A stretch of 64,000 bases of DNA, from contig NZ_LR027880.1 in assembly GCF_900537995.1 (NCBI RefSeq), positions 1,744,001 through 1,808,000 on the forward strand. The letters are read 5' to 3'. The DNA comes from Roseburia intestinalis L1-82 (GTDB taxonomy: Bacteria > Bacillota > Clostridia > Lachnospirales > Lachnospiraceae). The position numbers and the translations under genes were made by a program. Below are positions 10,842 to 63,972 of the stretch, piece after piece. Position 1 is the first letter of the stretch. The number at the start of each line of letters is the position of its first letter. Below the pieces are notes generated by a model, which had not been told where the DNA came from, searched no databases, and worked only from the letters and a program-made list of their open reading frames with translations.

Positions 10842-10876
10842 AAGCGGGAAAAAGTTACTCAGGAATGGAGATTTAT

Positions 10877-60950: not shown

Positions 60951-62147
60951 TTGCTGGAGATTAAGACAACAGAAGCGGATACCAGTGCAAAGATCATCGT
61001 GATCGGAGTAGGAGGAGCTGGTAATAATGCTGTAAATAGAATGATTGATGAGAGTATCGGGGGAGTCGAGTTTATCGGAGTAAATACAGATAAACAGGCG
61101 TTGGCACTCTGTAAAGCACCGACACTGATCCAGATCGGTGAAAAGCTGACAAAAGGACTTGGAGCAGGAGCACAGCCGGAAATCGGTCAGAAAGCCGCTG
61201 AGGAAAGCATGGAAGAATTATCTGCAGCAGTGAAGGGCGCGGATATGGTTTTCGTAACCTGTGGTATGGGTGGCGGAACCGGAACAGGTGCAGCACCGGT
61301 TGTTGCAAAGATTGCAAAAGAGCAGGGAATCTTAACGGTCGGCGTTGTGACAAAACCATTCAAATTTGAAGCAAAACAGCGTATGTTAAATGCACTTTCC
61401 GGTATTGACCGTTTAAAAGAGAGCGTTGATACACTGATCGTGATCCCGAATGATAAGCTTCTGGAGATCGTTGACAGACGTACGACCATGCCGGATGCCT
61501 TAAAGAAGGCAGATGAAGTGTTACAGCAGGCTGTTCAGGGAATTACAGACCTTATCAATCTGCCGGCACTGATCAATCTTGACTTTGCTGATGTTTCCAC
61601 TGTCATGAAGGACAAGGGTATGGCACATATCGGTATCGGTAATGCCAAGGGAGATGACAAAGCAATCGAAGCTGTCAAACTTGCAGTTGCGAGTCCGCTG
61701 TTAGAGACCACGATCAATGGTGCATCCCATGTTATTATCAATATTTCCGGTGATATTTCCCTGATGGATGCGAACGATGCAGCAAGCTATGTTCAGGATC
61801 TTGCAGGTGATAATGCAAACATTATTTTTGGTGCGAAGTATGATGAGTCTATGACAGATGAAGCTACGATCACAGTTATCGCAACAGGACTTGAGAATGC
61901 GGCAGCACCGAAGAGCAAGATTATGCCGGATCTCCGCTATGGAAATACAACAAACGTTACAAGACCGGTTGGAACACCTGGCATCAACAGACAGGCGGCA
62001 AATCTTGGTGCAAGTGTACAGGCACATACGCAGACACAGACGGCTGCACCATCATTTTCTGGTATTCAGAGACCGCGTCAGCCTGAGAGCACAGTACAGC
62101 CAATGGATATTAAAATTCCGGATTTCCTTAAAAATTCAAGAAAATAA
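60951..62147 (+). CDS. ftsZ: Cell division GTPase FtsZ (TTG start)
   Basis: 398 residues. Tubulin-like GTPase that forms the division ring. [14 protein letters not shown], the GTP loop [10 protein letters not shown] (about residue 108) and the T7 loop [11 protein letters not shown] are intact. A variable linker leads to the conserved C-terminal peptide ([10 protein letters not shown]) that binds FtsA/SepF. TTG 60951 is the start, 7 nt after AGGAGG. ftsA is not adjacent, in line with SepF use in many Clostridia. Confidence 0.97.
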
Positions 62148-62229: not shown

Positions 62230-62277
62230 AAAGAGATTTATGTGTTTGAAGAGAAAACACATAAATCTCTTTTTATA
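62230..62277 (+). terminator. Terminator of ftsZ
   Basis: AAAGAGATTTATGTGTTT pairs with AAAACACATAAATCTCTTTTT around a short loop. One of the strongest hairpins in the window. Confidence 0.95.
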
Positions 62278-62295: not shown

Positions 62296-62372
62296 TTGTC
62301 GAAAATAAGGGATGATTTGCGGGATTTGGAGTACCTGTTTTGACAAAAAGTAAAGTTGTACTGTTTTATAAT
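62296..62372 (+). promoter_or_regulatory. spoIIG promoter with two Spo0A boxes and a 21-bp spacer
   Basis: TTGTCGAA (62296-62303) is a near-perfect 0A box. A second, reversed box TTTTGACAAAA (62338-62348; TTTTGTCAAAA on the other strand) contains the -35 TTGACA (62340-62345). The -10 TATAAT is at 62367-62372, so the spacer is 21 bp. In B. subtilis spoIIG has a similarly long spacer and needs Spo0A~P for SigA polymerase to start; the layout here agrees. Confidence 0.8.
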
Positions 62373-62417
62373 AACAGTAAAGATACGAAAGAGTCTGGAG
62401 AAAAGGGGTGAGACGAG

Positions 62418-63227
62418 ATCTATGTATTTTATGCAGATGTGTTCCTGCTTGAAAATCTGTTTATGGACTATATGGCAATACTTGGATGCAACTGCCTGCT
62501 GAAACGGAGGATACATCCCGGGCGGCTGTTTGCGGTATCGCTGATGTTTTCGCTGATTCATCTGTTTCTGGTGTGCTTTATCAATAACAGGATCCTGTAT
62601 TTTTTGATCGCACATTTTGTTTTAAACACAGGGATGGTATTTTTTTGTTTTGGTTGGGAAGGAAAATGCAGTTATTTAGAAAACTGGGTTGTGACCTATT
62701 TTATGTGCGTGATACAGGGAGGTGCGCTTGAGTGGCTCTTAGAACAGCATATATTTTCGCAAAATGAAATTTTACAGATGCTTGTTGCGGCAGCGGTAGT
62801 TGTTACGGCAGTGATCTGTTTTGGTGAAAGGCGCGTTTATGGAAATCATATATATCCTGCAGAGTTAAAAAAAGGAGAAAGGCATATCAGGCTGCGTGCA
62901 TACTGGGATAGCGGGAATCAGCTGACGGATCCGTACACAGGACAGGAGATCAGTATTCTATCGGGATCTGTGGCGGAAAAATTCTTTACAAAAGAAAAGG
63001 ATCTGGTTCGTTTTGTGCCATATCGGTCACTGGGGGAAAAGGATGGACTGATCGCGGTAACAAATGTGGATGAAATGACTGTTTTTCAGGGAAAACGTGC
63101 GGTAAAAATCCCACATGCAGCGATTGGAACCGCAGATAAGATGCTGTTTGACGGTAAGGAATATGAAATGCTCTTAAATGCTTCGAGCATTATGCCACAG
63201 GGCGGCAAGACAGAAAATAAGAATTAA
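62418..63227 (+). CDS. spoIIGA: Sigma-E processing peptidase SpoIIGA, apparent ATC start
   Basis: About 269 residues. Membrane protease that converts pro-SigE to SigE in the mother cell. Five N-terminal helices ([16 protein letters not shown] and following) precede a retroviral-like aspartic protease domain with [14 protein letters not shown] (catalytic Asp about residue 164). In the protein frame the residues before GTG 62439 are I-Y-V-F-Y-A-D, the expected SpoIIGA N-terminus with ATC in the start position 62418, 6 nt after GGGGTGA. There is no ATG, GTG or TTG in frame between stop TGA 62409-62411 and GTG 62439. GTG 62439 has no ribosome site and would cut the first helix. Confidence 0.88.
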
Positions 63228-63240
63228 GGTGGAATTGAAA

Positions 63241-63972
63241 ATGTACATAAAATTTGCGATACCAAAGATAAGAACGATGATATTTCCTGGTATTTTTCGA
63301 AAGAAAAAGGATGAGGTGCATTATATCGGAGGCGCAGAGGTGCTTCCGCCGCCGCTTGCCGGTGAAGATGAGGCGGTATGCATAGAGATGCTTACCAGTG
63401 ATGAGAGCGGACAGCTTGCAAGAAAACAGCTGATTGAACATAACTTGCGGCTTGTGGTGTATATTGCAAAAAAATTTGATAATACCGGCGTCGGGGTGGA
63501 GGATCTGATTTCTATCGGTACGATTGGTCTGATCAAAGCAATCAACACATTTAATCCCGGGAAAAATATCAAACTTGCGACCTACGCTTCGAGATGCATT
63601 GAAAATGAAATTCTGATGTATCTGCGGCGAAACAGCAAAACGAGAATGGAAGTGTCTATTGATGAGCCTTTAAACGTGGACTGGGACGGAAATGAGCTGT
63701 TACTTTCGGATATCTTAGGAACCGATGAGGACGTGATCTATCACGACATTGAAACGGATGTGGAACATCGGCTGCTTAAGACAGCGATTGGAAAACTATC
63801 TGGCAGGGAACGGATGATCATTGAACTGCGGTTTGGGTTAAATTCCATCGATGGAGAGGAAAAAACCCAGAAAGAGGTTGCGGATATGCTTGGTATTTCC
63901 CAGTCCTACATATCCAGACTGGAAAAAAAGATCATGGGAAGACTGAAAAAAGAAATCGTGCGTCTTGAGTAA
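63241..63972 (+). CDS. sigE: RNA polymerase sporulation sigma factor SigE
   Basis: 243 residues. Early mother-cell sigma factor, made as an inactive precursor. The pro-sequence runs to [15 protein letters not shown], close to the known Tyr-Ile-Gly processing region. Region 2 ([58 protein letters not shown]) and region 4 ([33 protein letters not shown]) are complete. ATG 63241 is set by AAGGTGG; a longer frame from 63178 overlaps spoIIGA. Cotranscribed with spoIIGA, 13 bp downstream. Confidence 0.96.

Follow-up and report, generated by a model that had tools for sequence, protein, structure and literature searches.

An AUC codon of a conserved AUH class as the probable start of spoIIGA in Roseburia intestinalis, and apparent selection against AUG at this site

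It is highly likely that the sporulation gene spoIIGA of Roseburia intestinalis L1-82 is translated from an AUC codon at position 62418 of the window (the whole stretch of 64,000 nucleotides analysed here, from a genome of 4,493,348 bases in a single contig), and that selection holds this codon weak, which would limit SpoIIGA relative to pro-sigma-E. This reading is drawn from sequence comparisons. In the window gene and in most of its relatives within the genus, a codon of the conserved AUH class (AUU, AUC or AUA; ATH in the DNA) stands at Shine-Dalgarno (SD) spacing without a usable AUG, GUG or UUG. If true, the pair would offer a clear example of how selection for poor initiation can set the ratio in which two neighbouring proteins are made. 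Gene callers limited to ATG, GTG and TTG clip or wrongly extend the N-terminus, in this instance the part where the first membrane helix begins, and the protein affected is a key sporulation protein of an abundant gut genus.

Results

The product of the spoIIGA frame (Table 1) matches PF03419 with 163.3 bits (cut-off 28.4) and covers positions 2–292 of the 293 in the NCBIfam profile TIGR02854; its score there is 94.1 bits and the equivalog cut-off is 209.55, a naming threshold and no biological feature. A Roseburia rectibacter protein of 87% identity carries the NCBI name SpoIIGA. The gene lies directly upstream of sigE, which TIGR02835 and NF006158 both recognize above cut-off at 63241–63969.

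Read in the SpoIIGA frame, the codons from the upstream stop onwards are TGA (62409–62411), GAC, GAG, ATC (62418–62420), TAT, GTA, TTT, TAT, GCA, GAT and GTG (62439–62441). A sequence-only reading of this stretch had proposed that the TGA blocks any earlier start, that the ATC follows GGGGTGA by 6 nt, that the GTG lacks a ribosome site, and that the ATG at 62422 is out of frame. The codon reading bears out the first and the last of these points. GGGGTGA (62405–62411) does end 6 nt 5′ of the ATC, its GG core lying 9 nt upstream, and the ATC has an SD score of 17.5; none of the ATG, GTG or TTG codons in the first quarter of the frame scores above 10.

An SD followed by an ATC is weak evidence by itself, since ATH codons behind a fair SD also arise by chance in the open reading frames (ORFs) of the window: three of the 52 other mechanically defined ORFs (at 10865, 17558 and 21822) have one with an SD score of at least 16.5. 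A canonical start with an SD score of at least 12 is present in 43 of the 53 mechanical ORFs, and spoIIGA is among the ten without; some of the others lacking such a start also have a well-scoring ATH codon, so that the window-wide baseline is weak as well. The weight for the ATC start comes from the relatives, where the homologous codon belongs to the ATH class in 47 of 55 unique loci of the genus (that of R. intestinalis included) and ATG or GTG in none.

Table 1. Features of the spoIIGA start region in the window
Feature	Positions	Strand	Remarks
Spo0A-box-like sequence TGTCGAAA	62297–62304	+	Upstream of the spoIIG promoter
−35 element TTGACA	62340–62345	+	21-bp spacer to TATAAT
−10 element TATAAT	62367–62372	+	Ends 45 nt before ATC 62418
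SD match AAAAGGGGTGA	62401–62411	+	Score 17.5; spacing 9 to ATC
In-frame TGA	62409–62411	+	Inside the SD; closes the frame upstream
Proposed spoIIGA start codon ATC (AUC)	62418–62420	+	From the SD and comparison with relatives
spoIIGA, sigma-E processing protease by Pfam	62418–63227	+	269 codons from ATC to stop; PF03419
Out-of-frame ATG (in UAU-G)	62422–62424	+	26-codon dead-end frame
First conventional in-frame start, GTG	62439–62441	+	Rejected as spoIIGA start
In-frame ATG	62463–62465	+	Corresponds to the first codon of the closest database entry (254 aa)
sigE	63241–63972	+	ATG start; same-operon control

A spoIIGA match was obtained in 55 of the 62 genomes of the genus, our own included, and the remaining seven gave none. 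One locus was read per matching genome and nine named loci (L031–L039) were added, the named relatives being mostly Roseburia; removal of loci identical over 190 nt left 204 of 218, namely 55 from the genus and 149 from outside. At the homologous codon, six codons before the Asp of the Y-x-D motif (codon −6), the genus rows have ATT (19), ATA (15) or ATC (13), and otherwise ACA (three), ACC, GAA, GAT, CGG or TTG (one each). The AUH rows counted below number 46, because nine of the 55 do not fit or were set aside: L030, L080 and L074 have an ATG one codon upstream that is used or possibly used, L082 has TTG at the homologous site, and L092 has ATC at the site but an ATG two codons upstream. The other four (L029, L071, L075 and L078) group together, with ACA or ACC at the AUH place and unclear starts. 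The mechanical rule had assigned 42 of the 55 rows to AUH; L015, L019, L087 and L094 were moved from GTG to AUH because their GTG is the one within the SD.

All 46 counted rows have an SD; across AUH rows its median score is 19, and its spacing is 8–9 in 52 of 57. Tyr −5, Tyr −2 and Asp 0 occur without exception in the 46, and codons −8 and −7 are nearly random (entropy 3.1–3.4 bits). Ile −6 also reaches 46 of 46, a figure that follows from the selection of the rows for it, the unselected count being the 47 of 55 given above. The AUH class at the predicted spoIIGA start is kept across species of the genus, and the conserved N-terminal motif begins there; the comparison thus lends strong support to the AUC start that the sequence-only reading had put forward.

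An IQ-TREE quick tree was built from 61 rows with the start codon excluded, and 18 of its 58 inner branches are open. For the 46 AUH rows it requires at least 16 changes of the third base among A, C and T, and none to G; FastTree also gives 16. G occupies 41.3% of the fourfold sites of these genes, and the probability of finding no G in 16 changes is about 2 × 10⁻⁴ when the changes are treated as independent. Since a single change turns any ATH codon into ATG, the best start, this avoidance of ATG points to selection for a poor spoIIGA start. Belinky et al. report that AUG is generally favoured as a start, and a conserved poor start would on that basis require some special benefit.

For sigE, where the scoring offered only ATG, GTG and TTG, the best canonical start is ATG in 79 of the 81 loci whose sequence as read included the sigE motif. 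The GTG rows are L148 and L084; the GTG of L084 lies one codon before the motif and is probably a misread. In infC, an ATT follows an SD, about 9 nt away, in all 24 loci read (30 fetched). Most of these loci also offer an ATG in frame four codons downstream, at too great a distance from the SD; L121 lacks this ATG. From this matching layout, the ribosomes of the genus very probably use an AUH start at infC too. A special initiator tRNA was also considered and rejected: a pattern search of the genome found two sites, both with the CAU anticodon.

Outside the genus, the mechanical rule divided the 149 rows into ATG (34), GTG (64), TTG (32), AUH (15) and unresolved (four); after reading, 11 were AUH, 129 canonical and nine unsure (L067, L102, L205, L206, L208, L214, L244, L247 and L248), these last being removed before counting. 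One of them, L248 (genome G152), has an apparent ATT start and an out-of-frame ATG that is well spaced from the SD, and may represent a frameshift or homopolymer error. The canonical starts mostly lie one codon upstream, with a spacing of 6 in 82 of 131. On the FastTree tree, with 190 of the 204 rows scored, the AUH or canonical state changes at least ten times, which suggests that the AUH start has probably been gained or lost several times. In the wider class, 147 genomes were searched and 114 matched; in each of the best 30 of these matches a canonical codon was seen by eye near the expected place. As judged from these predicted starts, which outside the genus are for the most part GTG or TTG, poor spoIIGA starts are widespread in the family, with AUH as the extreme form.

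The homologous database proteins number 120. A pattern match found the N-terminal motif missing from 73 of these, a set that includes fragments and a few proteins that begin inside the motif (P0006 and P0007), and the other 47 have the motif behind an upstream start. Thirty of the 47 begin three residues before it (MRKIY...), which fits the GTG within the SD. The closest protein (P0001; 98% identity, 907 members) begins at the equivalent of ATG 62463, and P0003 at that of GTG 62439, so that in such entries the N-terminus of SpoIIGA is lost.

These two entries are what speaks for a start at GTG 62439 or ATG 62463 with the upstream residues untranslated, a reading that we consider quite unlikely. 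The SD scores of the canonical codons in this part of the frame do not exceed 10, as described above; a canonical codon occupies the place of GTG 62439 in only ten of the 46 AUH rows, so the relatives do not share the start that would have argued against the AUC; the residues upstream of the GTG are conserved (Tyr −5, Tyr −2 and Asp 0); and N-terminal cuts lower the TIGR02854 score from 94.1 to 84.7 and 76.2 bits. It is about as unlikely that the ATH is an internal isoleucine codon, reached by translation from upstream (from the GTG within the SD, from another frame, by frameshifting or by stop readthrough). The site does vary among ATT, ATC and ATA, as an Ile codon would, and the thirty MRKIY-type entries among the 120 could be taken in the same sense. 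An in-frame GTG is present at −9 in 22 of the 46 AUH rows, so that the frame would allow a start there in those species; R. intestinalis has TGA at this place. However, TGA occupies −9 in 21 of the 46 rows, 38 of the 46 have a stop somewhere in codons −20 to −7, codons −8 and −7 are unconserved, and the predicted leaders are short. Moreover, the −9 GTG is part of the SD and is exchanged for TGA between relatives (L012 and L013), which argues that the upstream frame is not conserved. GTN and CTN are the usual replacements of an inner Ile codon. Neither occurs at the site in any of the 55 genus rows. Ile is the commonest residue in ten other columns, and eight of these hold it in 20 rows or fewer; the absence of GTN and CTN is no more than suggestive, however, because the remaining two hardly vary (Ile in 43 of 46 and in 43 of 45).

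Decay of a dispensable sporulation gene could also produce an odd start, and it is a still less probable explanation. Seven of the 62 genus genomes gave no match, and a weak start would reduce expression, but in the 46 AUH rows the D-x-G motif invariably keeps its Asp (alignment column 173) and its Gly (column 175), the promoter and SD are retained in most loci, and decay would not shun ATG across 16 third-base changes. The ATC is one base from ATG, and the sequence-only reading had named a sequence error or a private G-to-C mutation as alternatives to an AUC start. With the ATH state common to most of the genus, and the same codon class found in relatives that were assembled separately, the named records L031–L039 among them, a sequencing error or strain-specific ATG-to-ATC change has a negligible probability.

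The out-of-frame ATG at 62422 was rejected as a real start: an ATG at this place is absent in eight of the 46 AUH genus rows, and in the other 38 its frame ends after 4–26 codons. An out-of-frame AUG of the UAU-G type follows the spoIIGA start in 45 of 57 AUH rows and in 80 of 133 canonical rows. The Tyr −5 codon is TAT rather than TAC in 124 versus 11 rows if G follows, and in 12 versus 13 otherwise (Fisher 1.2e-6; the rows of these counts are related by descent). Tyr −2 shows a like effect (40/13 versus 57/77), whereas the odds ratio at internal Tyr codons is only 1.3. The bias towards TAT before G may reflect a decoy AUG, or else a tendency to avoid C-G where the two codons meet. Activation of sigma-E is the commitment step of the mother cell. 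As a speculative extension that we regard as rather doubtful, the site in Lachnospiraceae might be a two-part throttle, in which a poor in-frame start (GUG, UUG or the repeatedly evolved AUH) competes with an out-of-frame, dead-end AUG a few bases downstream, and through which IF3 and initiation fidelity would tie sigma-E activation to the state of translation.

Upstream of the gene lie promoter-like boxes and, farther 5′, a Spo0A-box-like sequence, as judged by the 0A-box consensus (Table 1). Transcription is predicted to start at about 62379, giving spoIIGA a leader of about 38 nt. Boxes resembling TTGACA and TATAAT (at most one mismatch each), 20–23 bp apart, are present in 35 of the 55 genus loci, and in those genus loci whose −35 element has no more than two mismatches the −10 element ends 33 nt (median) before the spoIIGA start; the leaders in the genus would thus be roughly 20–40 nt, with some longer, as in L008 and L014. 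A standard promoter scan with 16–18 bp spacers returned one minus-strand site only and did not list the spoIIG promoter, whose spacer is 21 bp. As for mRNA structure hiding the ribosome site, this was rejected, a 72-nt leader being no better folded than its shuffles (z −0.27). Farther upstream, after ftsZ, a perfect 18-bp AT-rich hairpin with a 7-base loop, followed by TTATATA, was seen by eye at 62230–62272; it may be a terminator, and is absent from the scan's list. The ftsZ gene itself apparently starts with TTG (60951–60953).

Discussion

The mechanism that we propose runs as follows. The SD helix 9 nt upstream would set the AUC in the ribosomal P site, where the ordinary CAU initiator tRNA would pair with its first two bases; IF3 would disfavour the third-base mismatch and so lower acceptance. 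SpoIIGA would then be scarce relative to pro-sigma-E, which is encoded alongside with an AUG start, and selection would hold the codon within the AUU/AUC/AUA class, away from AUG. Initiation at the AUC, its low yield, its sensitivity to IF3 and its benefit (limiting or timing sigma-E activation) are all inferred; for the pairing, IF3 and scarcity steps we draw on infC, on ccpN and on in vitro work with IF3 (PMC10158994).

The AUH start suggests a built-in throttle on the amount of the protease. Conserved AUU, AUC and AUA starts are few in the literature consulted, and are tied there to IF3 autocontrol or to metabolism. Among open-licence papers, we did not find spoIIGA together with Roseburia, nor a near-cognate start codon together with sporulation and Bacillus. 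The AUH starts of infC, pcnB, ccpN and cvfC1 are known, so the kind itself is not new; spoIIGA as a gene with such a start, and the conservation of that start, appear to be new within the open-licence literature.

The nearest likeness is infC, which encodes IF3 and whose autocontrol is known for Escherichia coli. Both genes have a conserved AUH codon behind an SD, and the ATT of infC in the genus has much the same spacing as the start of spoIIGA. However, infC is the gene of IF3 itself and spoIIGA that of a developmental protease, and infC has ATT throughout the loci read, whereas spoIIGA varies among ATT, ATA and ATC. In E. coli pcnB, an inefficient AUU start reportedly limits translation (Binns and Masters 2002), in a gene of different identity and function. 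The starts of ccpN (AUA) and cvfC1 (AUU), mapped experimentally in 2026, are conserved Staphylococcus AUH starts outside infC, and in S. aureus reporters AUA and AUU yielded about a tenth (10%) of the AUG level in poor medium, with ccpN reaching up to 30% in rich medium (PMC13009471). They resemble spoIIGA in being conserved AUH codons behind an SD outside infC, but they have strong, extended SDs and experimentally mapped starts, whereas spoIIGA has an ordinary SD and a start predicted from sequence. Finally, in Bacillus subtilis, the GTG start of sigG has a modest, 1.3-fold effect and is one of several damping features (PMC5942855). In this respect sigG is likewise a sporulation gene damped by a weak start, but the start is GTG and not AUH, and the product is a sigma factor and not a protease.
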